A stretch of DNA of 64,000 bases, from the NCBI GenBank assembly GCA_028284585.1, contig JANQRK010000022.1:1-64000 (forward strand), read 5' to 3'. The stretch comes from Chromatiales bacterium. GTDB taxonomy: Bacteria; Pseudomonadota; Gammaproteobacteria; Chromatiales; Chromatiaceae. This document shows positions 41,735 through 60,649 of the stretch, in pieces. Every line of letters begins with the position of its first letter. Position 1 is the stretch's first letter. Position numbers and translations under genes: made by a program. The notes under the pieces are model-generated. The model made no database searches. It was not told the DNA's origin and was given only the letters and a program-made list of their open reading frames with translations.

Positions 41735-41898
41735 GGGCTGTTCACACTACGCGAGGCGCAGCGACAGCGGCCGTTTTTTCGGCCAGCGAGACGCTGCGAG
41801 CGTGATGTGCTCACTGTACATGAGCGAGCAGCCACAAAGTTGGGCGGAAAAACGGCCCCGTCCCTTCGGGTTGCACCTCGCGTAGTGTTGAACAGCCC
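41735..41898 (+). repeat. Complete MITE-like inverted-repeat element
   Basis: Ends are imperfect inverted repeats gggctgttcacactacgcgagg ... cctcgcgtagtgttgaacagccc; left ~97 bp homologous to 1..97 (inverted). Confidence 0.8.
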
Positions 41899-52183: not shown

Positions 52184-54628
52184 ATGAGCATCCGTGGTCT
52201 TTCGATCATTGGGGCAGCCATGCTGCTGCTCGGCTCCATCGGCCAATCGATTGCCGATCCCACACCAGTCACCTACAGCGATGCGGGCTTTCATGCTGGC
52301 GCAGCCGACTTGACGCCACAAGAGCGCGCCGGACGCGAAATCTGGTACAAGGCCACTGCCGGCAACGACCGGTTCCACACCTACGTGTTCCAACAGCGCA
52401 TGGGGGTGCTGATCGACTGGTGGCGCGTACTGCGCGCAGACAAACGCGACGAGCGCTTCAAGACATGGGGACTAGTGAACAATCCCGGCTGCTGCATGCC
52501 AGGCACCGCGGGTTGTCCAGCCAAGAGTCTCGACGAGACCTTCGGCTTCGAATGGTGCTATGGCGATGACGAGCTGTTGAAGTTCGTTGGTCGCAGCGGT
52601 TACCGCGACCCGGCCTGCGATTTCGTCGACCCACCCATGCCGGACGATCACCCGCACAAGGGTGACGGCCTGCGCGAAGACCCTTGCCATATGGCCTTCG
52701 GCACATCGACCGGCGCGATGGGGCTGAGAAAGTTTCCCAACCCTCGTTTCGATGCCGATGCCTGGTGCTAGGTCAATGATGGATCACTGGGTACCTGGGA
52801 GGGTTTTGCGCGCCGCATGTCGGACGACCCCAGTCAATCCGGCTACCAGGCCAAGAAACTGGCCGACGCCTCAGTGGAGCCGCCTTTCCTGATCGGCATG
52901 TCCTGTGGCAGCTGCCATATTGCGTTCGACCCGAATAACCCGCCGGACGATATCGCCAACCCCAAGTGGGAAAACCTGATCGGCGCCATCGGCAACCAAT
53001 ACTCTCGGATGTCCGAACTTATGGTCTCGGGGATGAGCGAAGACAGCCTGCAATGGCAAGTCTTCTCGCATACGCGTCCAGGCGCGGTTGACACCTCGGC
53101 CGTTCCGACCGACCAGGTCAACAACCCCGGCACCGTCAATGCACTTATCAATGTGCTGCAGCGGCCGCGCTTCGAAGACGAGCTGATCGATCGCTGGCGC
53201 CCGACTAACAGCTGCCCGGAGCAAGCTAATGCGCGCGAGTGCTGGTGCGAACCTGGCAAGACCGACAAGTGCTGGAATAAGAGCACCGAGCGCGAGACGG
53301 TGTTCCACATCCTCAAGGGCGGTGGCGACTCGGTCGGCGACCTGTTGGCGGTGCAACGCGTGTACATCAACATCGGCTCCTGCTCGGAGCAATGTTGGCT
53401 GAACCACCTGACCGATCTCTACCAGGTCGATCCTCAGCAACGCAATTTCGGACAAACACCGTTTGACATCGGCCAGTGCCGTCGTGACTGCCCGAGCTTC
53501 CGCGCGATCGAGGACCGCGCTCACGACGTGGTGAGTTTCCTGCTATCGAAGAAGGCCTACTCGACGCCCCTATGGAAGGCCAAAGGCCTGACCGATCTGG
53601 ACGACTGGGTGGATACCCTAGAAGCCGACTTTGGGGAGGGCACGTTTGATCGTGGCCGCCAAGTGTTCGCGCAGAATTGCGCACGCTGCCACTCGAGCCA
53701 GGACGGCCCAGTCGAGGCGCGGGATTTCCATAAGGCCTCTGATACTCCCGGGGTGCGTGAAGACTGGCTGGGCAACGACCAAGCCACGCCGGCGTCCGAG
53801 GTCGGCACCTACAATTGCCGATCGCTGCATTCCAATCACATGGCCGGGCACATCTATGAAGAGTTCGCCTCCGAGACCTATCGCTCGCGCGAACCCGATG
53901 TCAACCAGGCCGATGAAACCGGCGGTGGCCGCGGCTACTATCGCAACATCTCCTTGGTCGATCTCTGGGCCCATGCGCCCTTCATGCACAATAATGCGAT
54001 CGGCCCGGAGTTGTGCGGCAAGCCGAGTGATCCGAACGATGAGTTCTATCGCTCGCCCTATGTCGACGCCGATGGCAAGCGTTTATCCAATCCGCCGGAC
54101 TGCGTCGCCTACGATCCGTCGGTCGAGGGTCGCTATCAATTATTCCTCGAGTCGGTCCGCCTGCTGCTCAATCCCGACCAGCGGATCCCAAAGATCACAC
54201 AGCTCACCGACCCGATCCGGCGGGCCATCGGACCCAAGCTATATGACGGCGAGAAAGAGCGCCTGATGGGCATCGAGATCGAAGTGCCGGTTGGCACGCC
54301 GGTCGGTTGGTACGGCAGCTTCCAGCACAAGGAGCTACTGCGCGACATGGTGCTGTCTCGACTGGACAGCGCCCGCCTCCAAGAACGCATGGTGCAACGC
54401 GTCGGCCCCAGCGAGGCCAAGGCGGCCGCCAAAGAGATCGCGGCCCTGACCAATGCGGTGCTGGACCAACCCGATCAACTGGTGGCGATCGCCGGCGAAA
54501 AATTGCCATTGCTCGGTAGCCTGTATAGCACCTGCACAGCCAAGGTAGAAAACGCCGGCCACCGCTTCGGCGAAGACCTATCGACGGATGACAAGCGGGC
54601 ACTGACCGCATTTCTGGCGACGCTCTGA
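52184..54628 (+). CDS. Periplasmic di-heme c-type cytochrome interrupted by one in-frame TAG (52769..52771)
   Basis: ORFs 52184..52771 and 52817..54628 are in the same frame; the 15 codons between (VNDGSLGTWEGFARR) are sense and family-consistent. Signal peptide; heme motifs CGSCH and CARCH. Confidence 0.82.
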
Positions 54629-54640
54629 AGGAGAATCACT

Positions 54641-55534
54641 ATGCCCCACCGGTCGCTTCTCCCAGCACTGGCCATGTCGCTACTACTCGTCGGCTGCGGT
54701 GACGTAGCCCCACCGGACGTGCCCTTCCTGGGCTATGGCGACGAATATCAGACCAAGCCCGATCTCGCCCGGGTCGAGCATGAGCTCCCACTCGGGCCGG
54801 CCGATTTGATGAAATTGACGCCGGACAATCTGGCTGCGCTCGATCAGGAGCAGATCGACCAGATCTACGCCCGGCTGACCGCTGGCCCGATCCCAGATGG
54901 CGCCTACAACGGGACCTTTTTCTTCGCCGACGGTGGCGGCGCCCGACGCCTCGCCGAACTCATGGGCGGACTCAAGGGACTGGCGGTAAACTTCAAGCTG
55001 AGCAGCCTAGAGACGATCGGCCAGATGCTCTGGAAGGGTAAGGTCTTCTATCGCGACGAACGCCTGCTGCGCAACATGATCCAAGACCGGCAGCTACTCA
55101 AGTTGCTGGTCGATGATCCGAGTGCCTTGCCCAAGACCGATATTCCCGGGCGTAAGATCCTCGGCCTGTTCCAAGACGATGCCTGGTTACTGTTTCCAGC
55201 CAAGCTGTACTGTGGCCAGAGCCTGCTGGACTCGCGTCGTGAGTCGATCATCATCGACTATGCCTTCAACGACGAGATCGCCGGTTACCAAGAGCGACCG
55301 GACTTCCTGGCCGGACGTCGCGGACTGAAGATCCGCGATGAGATCCGCATGGTACGGCCTGGTTTCTACCTCGGGCGGGCCTACATGGGGCATGTCTTCT
55401 TGCTCAACTTCACGCTCTACAACAAGTCAGTGGCCGATGCCACCGCCAAGGATTTCGAGGCAACCGGGGAGGCCGCCGAGGACTGCTGGCCCGGCGGTCA
55501 GGGTCCCGGTCGACTCGTTGCACGCGGAGGTTGA
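54641..55534 (+). CDS. Putative lipoprotein, hypothetical, within cytochrome operon
   Basis: Lipobox LLLVGCGD; RBS ggag before ATG; 297 aa. Confidence 0.75.
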   Translation: MPHRSLLPALAMSLLLVGCGDVAPPDVPFLGYGDEYQTKPDLARVEHELPLGPADLMKLTPDNLAALDQEQIDQIYARLTAGPIPDGAYNGTFFFADGGGARRLAELMGGLKGLAVNFKLSSLETIGQMLWKGKVFYRDERLLRNMIQDRQLLKLLVDDPSALPKTDIPGRKILGLFQDDAWLLFPAKLYCGQSLLDSRRESIIIDYAFNDEIAGYQERPDFLAGRRGLKIRDEIRMVRPGFYLGRAYMGHVFLLNFTLYNKSVADATAKDFEATGEAAEDCWPGGQGPGRLVARGG

Positions 55535-55552
55535 GGGCGGAGGGATGTCGCG

Positions 55553-57661
55553 GTGGCTATCGGAAGCGCGCACTCTCTATTGCTTTGCTCCTTCCTGGTT
55601 TGCGGCACCGCCGCTGCCGGTCCGGCCTGGGTGGTGGAGCCGCACCCGCCCGGACCCGACCTTCCCCCCCAGGGACGCTCCCTGTTCGATCGACTGACGC
55701 TGCACAATGGCAAGCAGCGGGTGCCCTTCCCGTTGCAAGCCCTGCTCGATCAAATCACCGGTCAGCTGGACCAAGACCATGCCTACCTGGACCAGCCGTT
55801 GAAGGCCGTGCTGATCCCGCTCGGCCGCTCACTGCAACGCGAGGCCGCAGCGCCGAACTACTTCGCGTCGCCGCGCGCGGTGATCGCCGTCGACACCGAC
55901 CCGGCTGTCCGACCGGGTGAGGCCGGCCTGTTGCTGCGTGACCGACTGTTTTTGGGCTACCTCGAAACAGCCAACATACTCGAGGTGATCAGCTACAACG
56001 AAGACGCCGGGCGCTTTGAGTTTCAGATCGTGCACGACTACCGTGCCGGTGGTGAGGCGCAGGTCCGCTATGCGCGACGGGTGGTATGTCTGGCCTGCCA
56101 CCAGAACGCCGCGCCGCTGTTTGCTCGCCCTTTGTGGGATGAGACCAACGCCAATCCGGATATCGCCGCTGCACTGGACTCGGTTGGTGGCGACTTCTAT
56201 GGCCTGCACACCAAAATCGGCGTCGATCTCGCCTATGCCATCGACAACGCGACCGACCGGGCCAACGATTTCGCACTCACACAGTTACGTTGGGGCCAGG
56301 GTTGCGGCCTGGGTCAGCCGGGCGCCGACTGCCGGTCTGCCCTGCTGACCCGTGCACTGCACTATGCGCTGAGTGGTGAGCGTAGCTTCGAACATGATTC
56401 CGACGACTATCGCCAAACACTGCGCGCACCCATGCAGGAGATCCGCGTCTCTCTGTGGCCGGAAGGGCTTTGGTTGCCTAATCCCGATGTCCCGAACCGC
56501 AAGCCCTTGAGCCAAATTGGTCTGGCCGCCGCGGCGCGACCGGATCTGGCAGCAATCGATCTGGCTGCACGGGCGAATGTCACCGCCCAATTCGAACCCC
56601 TCGAGCCGCGCCCGCCGCTCGCGCTCTGGAACCCCGAGTCCGACGCCTGGGTGGAGCGCGCGATCGTCGGACTCAGACAGTTTCTCGCCACAAGCGACAT
56701 CCAACGTCTGGACCGGGCCTTGCAATCCAGCACCGCCGAGCTAGAACAGCTCGCCGCCGACTGCACCGCCAAAAGGCTACCGGGCGAGTCCTTCACCCGT
56801 ATCAAGCTCGACTGCCAAGGCCCAAGTGTTCGGCTTCAGGGCCGGCTGCGCCTGGCACAGGCCGACAAATCGATCAACGGCCGTCTGCGCCAGTTACAGG
56901 TGCGTGGGCAAGTGCTGAGCGGCGTTCGGCTGCGAGGTCAGGCCACTGCAGATGGTGCTTGGCAAGCCGAGCTGTATCGTCCGAGTTCGGCACTGCGTGT
57001 GCGCCTAGCAAACGGCGATGCATTAGACGGGTTACAGCTAAGACCCGCCGCATCAACCAGCGAGCGCGGCCAGATTAGGCTGCACATCAAGCATGACGCC
57101 GCGACGCTAACTGCAGCCGTCCTGCAACTTAAGAATTCGCCCGCACAGGTGCTCACCAATCAGCCTTTCTCGCGCACCCGCATGCTGCCACCGCTATTCG
57201 CCGCATTGAACCAGCCCGCGCTCAGCTGGTGCTGCAATGATGAAGGCCCATCCGCGGTCGGCACGCCGAAACTAGCGTCGCCAGATGGAGGCCCACACTT
57301 GGCCCCCTTCCTGAAATTCTGTGCCGCCTGCCATCGTTCCGATGATCCGTTTCCGCCGAACTTCCTGGCTGGCAACGCACATGAGGCGATGCGCCGTATC
57401 GCCCACTGCGCCGAGCGCATCCAGTATCGGCTGGCGATGTGGGATCTCGACACCGCGAGCCGACCCAAGACACCCATGCCGCCACGTGGATTCGTCGGAC
57501 TGGATAGCGTGACACTTGCCCATTGGACCCGTGAGTCGCTGACCCGACTGCGGCATGCGCTAGAGGACATCGCCGCGCAAAACGCCCAACCCTTGCCGGC
57601 CCGCGAGACCATCCGCAGTCGGTCCTATGTCGAACTCCGTCGCTGCCTCCCCACAGGTTGA
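55553..57661 (+). CDS. Large exported c-type cytochrome, two heme motifs (702 aa)
   Basis: GTG start, signal peptide, CLACH and CAACH. Confidence 0.8.
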   Translation: MAIGSAHSLLLCSFLVCGTAAAGPAWVVEPHPPGPDLPPQGRSLFDRLTLHNGKQRVPFPLQALLDQITGQLDQDHAYLDQPLKAVLIPLGRSLQREAAAPNYFASPRAVIAVDTDPAVRPGEAGLLLRDRLFLGYLETANILEVISYNEDAGRFEFQIVHDYRAGGEAQVRYARRVVCLACHQNAAPLFARPLWDETNANPDIAAALDSVGGDFYGLHTKIGVDLAYAIDNATDRANDFALTQLRWGQGCGLGQPGADCRSALLTRALHYALSGERSFEHDSDDYRQTLRAPMQEIRVSLWPEGLWLPNPDVPNRKPLSQIGLAAAARPDLAAIDLAARANVTAQFEPLEPRPPLALWNPESDAWVERAIVGLRQFLATSDIQRLDRALQSSTAELEQLAADCTAKRLPGESFTRIKLDCQGPSVRLQGRLRLAQADKSINGRLRQLQVRGQVLSGVRLRGQATADGAWQAELYRPSSALRVRLANGDALDGLQLRPAASTSERGQIRLHIKHDAATLTAAVLQLKNSPAQVLTNQPFSRTRMLPPLFAALNQPALSWCCNDEGPSAVGTPKLASPDGGPHLAPFLKFCAACHRSDDPFPPNFLAGNAHEAMRRIAHCAERIQYRLAMWDLDTASRPKTPMPPRGFVGLDSVTLAHWTRESLTRLRHALEDIAAQNAQPLPARETIRSRSYVELRRCLPTG

Positions 57662-57679
57662 TGCGCCGAGGAAAAAATC

Positions 57680-59179
57680 ATGACGACAGCCGCAGAGAAA
57701 AAATCCAAGAGGTCCCGGTTCTGCCCAATCCTCGTGTTCTTTTTGCTGATCCCGCTGGTGTTGGCCGGGATATTGACCATTTACCTGGCAAAACGCTTTC
57801 TGCCGGATGAGCCGGTCGCCTATGAGGACCCAGTCGAACACTTTAAATACGGCTCCACCGGCGGTGAGCGCAACCTGGGTTTCCCGTACTGGATCTGGCA
57901 AGTGTTGCCCCAAGTATGCGCAGAGCACCTGCCGGGTGACGGCTATGAGTCAGTCGGTTTCGTCTTCGAAGAGGGCAAAGACCTGCCCATCGGAATGTCT
58001 AAACGGCGCCAGTTTGGAATAGACCGGGTGTTTCTGAATTGCGCCGCCTGCCATGCCGCTACCGTGCGCACCGCACCGGATGCCGAACCCTTGATCGTGG
58101 TCGGTATGGGTGCCAACAACCTCGATCTGATGGCGTTCCAAAAGTTCATGTACAACTGTGTCGCCGACCGGCGCTTTACCCCGAAACAGATCGTTCCGCA
58201 TATCCAAGCGGCCGGTGCCGATCTGGACTTGCTCGACAAGTACGCGGTCTACCCGGCCGCGGTGCATCTGATGCGCGACGGGGTCGCCGGCTTGCTCGGG
58301 CGGCTGCGCTTTATCCATGCGCAGCCCGACTGGGGACCCGGCCGGGTCGATACGTTCAACTCGGCTAAGGCCCTGTTCAACTTTCCGATCGAAAAACTGC
58401 ACCCGGATGAGCTGCTTGGTGCGGCGGATTTTCCGACCATCTGGAACCAGGCCAAGAAGAAAGGGATGCAACTGCACTGGGACGGCAACAATGACAGCGT
58501 CGAGGAGCGTAACCTGAACGCCGCGTTCGGCACTGGAGCCACACCGCGCCTGATCGATCATGCCTCGATCGCCCGCATCCAGGCCTGGAACGCTACAGCC
58601 ACCCCACCCGCCTTTGGCGATCACTTCCCGATCGACCAGGAACTCGCCAAAAAAGGCGCACCGCTTTACAAACAATACTGCGCCGATTGCCATGGCCTCT
58701 CAGGTAGCGATTTCACCGGCCGCTTCGTCGGCCTGGTGGTATCTCTAATTTCAATCGGCACTGACCCTTACCGACTACACTCGTTCACCCCAGAGCTGGC
58801 CGCGAACCTGGGCACGCCGTATGCGGGCACCGAGTATCGGTTCAAGCACTTCAAGAAGACCTTCGGCTATGCCAATGCACCCATGGACGGTCTGTGGCTA
58901 CGCGCTCCCTATCTGCACAATGGTTCAGTGCCGACCCTATGGGACCTGCTACAGCCGGTCGATCAGCGACCCGCCAGCTTCTGGCGCGGCAACGACCGCT
59001 ATGACCCGGTCGAGCTTGGCTTCGTCGACGACGTGGCGGAAGAGAACGGCCGCAACTTCTTCTTGTATGACACCTCGATTCCCGGCAACGGCAATAGTGG
59101 GCATGAAGGCGCCGCCTACGGTACCGAACTGTCAGACGACCAGAAATGGGCGTTGATCGAATACCTGAAAAATTTCTGA
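57680..59179 (+). CDS. Membrane-anchored di-heme cytochrome, RoxA-like/di-heme peroxidase-like
   Basis: N-terminal TM; FKYGSTGGERNLGFPYWIWQVLP; CAACH and CADCH; LRAPYLHNGSVPTLWDLL. Confidence 0.85.
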   Translation: MTTAAEKKSKRSRFCPILVFFLLIPLVLAGILTIYLAKRFLPDEPVAYEDPVEHFKYGSTGGERNLGFPYWIWQVLPQVCAEHLPGDGYESVGFVFEEGKDLPIGMSKRRQFGIDRVFLNCAACHAATVRTAPDAEPLIVVGMGANNLDLMAFQKFMYNCVADRRFTPKQIVPHIQAAGADLDLLDKYAVYPAAVHLMRDGVAGLLGRLRFIHAQPDWGPGRVDTFNSAKALFNFPIEKLHPDELLGAADFPTIWNQAKKKGMQLHWDGNNDSVEERNLNAAFGTGATPRLIDHASIARIQAWNATATPPAFGDHFPIDQELAKKGAPLYKQYCADCHGLSGSDFTGRFVGLVVSLISIGTDPYRLHSFTPELAANLGTPYAGTEYRFKHFKKTFGYANAPMDGLWLRAPYLHNGSVPTLWDLLQPVDQRPASFWRGNDRYDPVELGFVDDVAEENGRNFFLYDTSIPGNGNSGHEGAAYGTELSDDQKWALIEYLKNF

Positions 59180-59191
59180 CAGGAGTTAGCG

Positions 59192-60649
59192 ATGAAACTG
59201 TTTAGGCGACTCTGGCGCTGGCTGAAAGTGACCGCTGTCCTACTGTTAATCCTAGGTGCCGTGGGCGCATACATCGGCTGGGACCGATTCATGCGCGTCC
59301 ATCCGGCACAGGCATTCGGTGACCCGGTTGAGCGCTTCAAATACGGCTCGATCGGTGCCGAACAAGACGCCGGCATCCCGTATTGGATCTTCTATGTGCT
59401 ACCCCGCGTTTTTCCCGACAAGTTGCCCGGGCCGGGTGGCTATGCCGCCTTCGGCGTCGCCTGGGAACCGGGCGAGGAACTGCCGATCGGTTTCTCGAAG
59501 CGCCGCATCGGCTTCGATCGCGTGGCCAATACCTGTGCGGTATGCCATACCGCCAGCTACCGGACGAAGCACGATAGCAATCCAGTATTGGTGCCTACCG
59601 GACCCAACCACACGCTCAACCTCGAGGCCTTCTTCCGCTTCCTGGTCGACTGCGCAAAGGACCCACGCTTCAACGCCGACACCTTGATGGAGGAGATCGA
59701 TCGCAGCGCCGATCTGGATTGGATCGATCGCCTCGCCTATCGCTTCCTGATTATCCCGATCACTCGCAAGCGCCTGATCGAACGCGAGCAACAGTTTGAA
59801 TGGATCTATCGTCACGACTTCCCGGAATGGGGCCGCGGGCGCGACGATGCCATGAATCTCACCAAGTACTTCATGATCGGCTGGCCGATGGACGATAGCT
59901 TCGGACCGACCGACATGCCATCGATTTGGAATCTAAAAAAATACCGCGCCGAGGACGGCCACCGCATGAACTTCGCCGGCGACAGCCACAATGCCTACTC
60001 GGTGATCATCGACTCGGCACTTGGGCTGATGGGCGCAGAGCCCAAGGACAAAGACGATTTTCTCGGCCATATCGACTGGCTGGTCGACTACCTATCGAAC
60101 AAACCAGCCCCCAGCTATCCGTTCCCCATAGATCAGACCAAGGCCGCCCAGGGTGAACAACTGTTCGCACAACGTTGCGCCAGCTGCCACGCCAGCAAGC
60201 GCACCGGGGCGGTGGTCCCAGTGGCCGAGGTCGGGACCGACCGCGAACGTCTCGATACCTGGAACGAGAAAGCCGCGCGTGAGGCCAATCAAGTGGCCGA
60301 GGACATGGGTATCGAACGCAAAGGGCTGGTCGAAGAACCGCTAACCGGCTATGTGGCGCAATTTCTCGACGGTATCTGGCTGGAAGCGCCCTATCTGCAC
60401 AATGGTTCGGTGCCGACCCTGTACGACCTGCTACTGCCGCCAGAGCAGCGACCGCAGCGCTTCTATCGCGGCTACGACGTCTACGACCCGATCAAGGTCG
60501 GTTTCGTGACCGAGGGGCCGCAGGCGGAACGCACCGGCACACTGCACGACACCAATGAGCGCGCCAACTCGTCCTAGGGTCACGACTTTGCGAGCGGCCT
60601 GTCCGAAGAAGAACGCTGGGCCTTGGTCGAGTATATGAAGACGCTGTGA
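59192..60649 (+). CDS. Membrane-anchored di-heme RoxA-like cytochrome interrupted by in-frame TAG (60575..60577)
   Basis: Paralogue of 57680..59179; CAVCH and CASCH. After the TAG the frame continues GHDFASGLSEEERWALVEYMKTL-stop, matching GHEGAAYGTELSDDQKWALIEYLKNF of the paralogue. Confidence 0.85.

Follow-up and report, generated by a model that had tools for sequence, protein, structure and literature searches.

Two in-frame TAG codons in a five-gene cytochrome operon of a Chromatiales bacterium: probable recent nonsense decay

According to a screen published in 2021 (PMC8629427), every bacterial change of the genetic code known until then reassigned UGA, so a bacterial recoding of TAG, if true, would have mattered; the same paper warns that pseudogenes can mimic the reassignment of a stop codon. 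In crAss-like phages using code 15 (TAG to Gln), TAG is recoded in many genes and suppressor tRNAs are predicted (PMC9523058). The locus described here resembles these phages in having TAG where homologues commonly have Gln, but no such tRNA was found in its genome, where TAG is a normal stop and release factor RF1 is intact. With bacteria that encode pyrrolysine, such as marine deltaproteobacteria (PMC8318568), it shares an in-frame TAG in a bacterial gene that is otherwise intact, but no PylS was found and the genes concerned encode cytochromes, not amine methyltransferases. The third comparison is with recent bacterial nonsense pseudogenes, which have in common with this locus an intact frame on either side of one stop and intact orthologues in sister genomes, as well as a patchy operon and other damaged genes in the genome. 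Nothing notably different sets the locus apart from these, and both lesions happen to be TAG.

The genome (4.06 Mb in 119 contigs, 94.75% complete) contains the window, that is the whole stretch of DNA analysed, as bases 1–64000 of contig 64. The operon spans 52184–60649 on the plus strand, and a literature search on this five-gene arrangement returned nothing specific. Gene 1 occupies the frame 52184–54628 and is interrupted by a premature TAG at codon 196 (52769–52771), with a part of 195 residues before it (52184–52768) that has no CxxCH motif, and a part after it (52772–54628) that carries both haem motifs, at residues 241 and 499. Gene 2 (54641–55534) encodes an intact lipoprotein-like product of 297 residues with no Pfam family, showing 81–82% identity to its counterparts in both sister genomes, G002 and G003. 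Gene 3 (55553–57661) encodes 702 residues with two CxxCH motifs, also with no Pfam family; it evolves much faster than its neighbours, with a pN/pS of about 0.5–0.67, though it is intact. Gene 4 (57680–59179) is an intact paralogue of gene 5, a di-heme CytoC_perox protein scoring above the NF040606 cut-off, and like genes 2 and 3 it is an open frame free of interruptions. Gene 5, as terminated (59192–60574), encodes a RoxA-like or CytoC_perox-like di-heme cytochrome c of 461 residues, with an N-terminal membrane anchor and CxxCH motifs at residues 115 and 329.

The premature stop of gene 5 is codon 462, a TAG at 60575–60577. It is in phase with the ATG at 59192, and this frame stays open past it, reading GHDFASGLSEEERWALVEYMKTL up to a TGA at 60647–60649. 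The lost tail thus has 23 codons plus the TGA (60578–60649), and aligns without gaps to the same-genus orthologues, GHDFGTALADDERWALVEYLKTL and GHAFADDLDDAQRWQLVEYLKTL, and to about 30 homologues. Judged by this alignment the tail is genuine coding sequence, and the proposal in the earlier note that the ancestral gene extended past the TAG is borne out. Over its full length gene 5 is about 81% identical to the orthologue in G002 and 79% to that in G003, and both have CAG (Gln) at the TAG site, each species being represented by one genome. Scanning named genomes turned up 28 homologous loci, most of them from Thiobacillus/Hydrogenophilales and from gammaproteobacterial metagenome-assembled genomes, and all homologues covering the position have a sense codon there, most commonly for Gln but also for Gly, Arg, Lys, Ile, Tyr, Ala and Asp. 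In the alignment, the tail has near-invariant residues at G463, H464, L470, L478 and K483, and the lost part holds a near-invariant GH motif as well as the C-terminal helix. In an AlphaFold model of the G003 orthologue, built from 27 homologues (mean pLDDT 84.2), the chain ends in a confident helix at residues 472–484 (pLDDT about 94–96), inside the part that is lost here.

By family, gene 5 belongs with the RoxA-like proteins, scoring 62.7 bits against PF21419 (gathering score 26.7) and having two CxxCH motifs. A Foldseek search with the model of the G003 orthologue agrees with this Pfam match, the best hit being the latex oxygenase RoxA (PDB 4b2n, E 3.1e-09). Gene 5 thus shares Pfam family and fold match with the RoxA/RoxB and CytoC_perox-like cytochromes (PF21419, NF040606, 4b2n), but it differs from RoxA, RoxB and RoxC in being shorter, membrane-anchored and part of a five-gene operon, and it lies far below their cut-offs, with 34.6 and 55.5 bits against the RoxA and RoxB NCBIfam models that require 1000 and 900.

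That a second TAG interrupts the same operon independently, as the earlier note had stated, was also found to be correct, and neither gene 1 nor gene 5 contains a frameshift. For gene 1 the sister compared was G003, since the G002 contig ends before the site; it has AAG (Lys) at the TAG position, and differs from the window at this codon and at the one preceding it. More distant homologues mostly have CAG (Gln), and the codons among alignable homologues are Gln CAG/CAA, Lys AAG/AAA and Ala, always sense. An internal reading frame starting at 52817, downstream of the gene 1 TAG, appears to lack an export signal. In both genes, as in nonsense pseudogenes, the truncation removes conserved sequence, and where the TAG stands intact orthologues have a sense codon.

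The earlier note held that two TAGs, with no frameshifts, are not what random decay would most simply give, and hinted at recoding. Among the one-step nonsense changes available to the five operon genes, about 51% yield TAG, 25–29% TAA and 20–25% TGA, shares that depend little on transition bias. Because about half of such changes give TAG, a pair of stops would both be TAG about one time in four (P about 0.26), and the argument from improbability does not hold. Selection was compared on either side of the stops. In gene 1, pN/pS against G003 is 0.22 before the TAG and 0.26 after it, and gene 5, compared with G002, has values of 0.16 upstream of the TAG and 0.17 in the tail, the latter coming from 23 codons only. 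Values between the intact sisters are similar to those for the interrupted genes. Selection thus shows no visible relaxation past the stops, indicating that these are either young or errors.

The translation machinery gives little room for TAG as a sense codon. No tRNA gene with a CUA anticodon is present among the 41 found with the Rfam tRNA model and decoded with ARAGORN in this 94.75% complete genome, and the gene for RF1 is intact at C93:9432 (529.9 bits), with both the GGQ motif and the PxT tripeptide. The best matches in a search for PylS scored 30.9 and 24.5 bits, where the cut-off is 178, a value that only one of the control genomes exceeded; a pyrrolysine system was rejected on these sub-threshold scores. 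Of the 166 genes that match an orthologue at their end, to within 3 residues of the C-terminus of the reference reading frame, 42 have TAG as their stop codon. No stop was found inside 116 domain matches (63 to ABC transporters and 53 to response regulators), in agreement with a normal code. Recoding of TAG, in the form of code 15 or of amber suppression, was discarded with the CUA tRNA missing from the inventory, RF1 intact and TAG a routine stop. Neither TAG is followed by unusual structure (z +0.98 and +0.60), and programmed readthrough was also set aside, as the TAGs are not conserved in the orthologues and no stimulatory structure lies downstream. The observation on the sequence and the extension of gene 5 in the earlier note accordingly stand, and its suggestion of something other than decay is not supported, given an intact RF1, the routine use of TAG as stop and the sense codons in the sisters. 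Three of the checks that it named, a CUA tRNA, retention of the TAG in sister genomes and the alignment of the gene 5 site with homologues, turned out against recoding.

Interrupted genes were searched for in stretches covering 1.56 Mb of the genome. At C8:31059 (minus strand) there is an in-frame TGA where the aligned G003 codon is CTG (leucine), in a gene with no Pfam match in the scanned part. At C75:26362 (minus strand) a conjugation-type gene of the TraG_N family has an in-frame TAG, and one Pfam match spans the stop. At C59:16845 a remnant named integrase from reading of the sequence contains TAG, TAA and TAA. Gene interruption in this genome is thus not limited to TAG, and the TGA at C8:31059 and the TAA at C59:16845 are interruptions of the kind that the earlier note had named as a mark of general pseudogenisation. 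The TraG_N lead came from a codon-usage scan, which is weak at 59% GC and gave many candidates that are normal neighbouring gene pairs. A comparison with sister reading frames was swamped by shadow frames and its true-frame hits were kept by eye, so that the number of interrupted genes is an approximate one. In-frame TAG is not widespread in conserved genes, the 1.56 Mb having yielded just a few that are interrupted, with mixed stop types among them. A footprint of a mobile element at the TAGs was considered because a repeat with CTAG flanks occurs in the genome, but the frame length is unchanged at either TAG.

We consider the probable explanation to be that a dispensable cytochrome operon has recently begun to decay by nonsense mutation, an ordinary one in the case of the Gln codon of gene 5, and hold this with good confidence. 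The TAG at 60575 would then have arisen recently from a Gln codon close to the 3' end of gene 5, and RF1 should terminate translation there, giving a protein without the last 24 residues, to which its GH motif and C-terminal helix belong. Gene 1 would have acquired a separate nonsense mutation to TAG, upstream of its two haem motifs, and the lineage, which can do without the operon, would have begun to lose it. Against this reading, two stops with neither a frameshift nor relaxed selection make an early and somewhat lucky stage to catch, and a suppressor tRNA gene could lie in the missing part of the genome, which is 94.75% complete. The TAGs might also be absent from the consensus of the living population, being sequencing or assembly errors or bases of a minority strain: an error would show the normal purifying selection seen around both TAGs, the assembly is fragmented (119 contigs) and the homologues found are deposited as metagenome-assembled genomes. 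Two independent nonsense substitution errors in one operon, with no indels, would however be improbable, and these genes have no frameshift; we regard error or a minority base as unlikely, and as less likely than real nonsense mutation. If real, both mutations would presumably be fixed in the population.

A truncated gene 5 that still works, with a dispensable 24-residue tail and the TAG as the new end of the gene, can be imagined because both CxxCH motifs lie upstream of the TAG. It is very unlikely, as the tail has near-invariant residues and a confidently predicted terminal helix, and it would leave unexplained why gene 1 has a TAG before its two haem motifs. Least expected of all are the readings in which TAG is decoded, in the organism or in this operon, as Gln through a suppressor or near-cognate tRNA or as pyrrolysine. 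CAG (Gln) is the commonest homologue codon at both sites, a pattern expected of Gln-type suppression, and purifying selection persists beyond both stops; but a single C-to-T mutation likewise turns CAG into TAG, RF1 is intact, neither a CUA tRNA nor PylS was found, TAG closes about a quarter of the matched genes, the sisters do not keep the TAGs, no structure lies 3' of the stops and the 116 domain matches are free of stops. We give such decoding hardly any credence, and equally little to low-level natural amber suppression, for example by a near-cognate tRNA-Gln, which would place Gln at the TAGs with little full-length cytochrome being made.

On the nonsense decay reading, the proteins of genes 1 and 5 would be non-functional, and the operon is probably inactive, since gene 5 lacks its conserved tail and gene 1 is stopped before its haem motifs. 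The operon is present in only 3 of the 9 genomes of the genus, and at C75:2479–5541 genes 4 and 5 have a pair of diverged but intact counterparts; this patchy distribution and the intact pair fit dispensability. Relatives of genes 1–3 were not seen in the part of the genome that was sampled. The consequences are mostly for annotation: genes 1 and 5 need flagging as interrupted, and the genome does not belong among the candidates for TAG recoding.

The window also contains a MITE-like repeat roughly 270 bases long, whose inverted ends measure some 36 bases, found at 1–103 and at 41735–41877, and on the same contig at C64:131439–131655. More than 15 further copies are present in the sampled genome, often at contig ends, and the repeat occurs at both ends of the contig to which the window belongs; it is probably a cause of assembly breaks.
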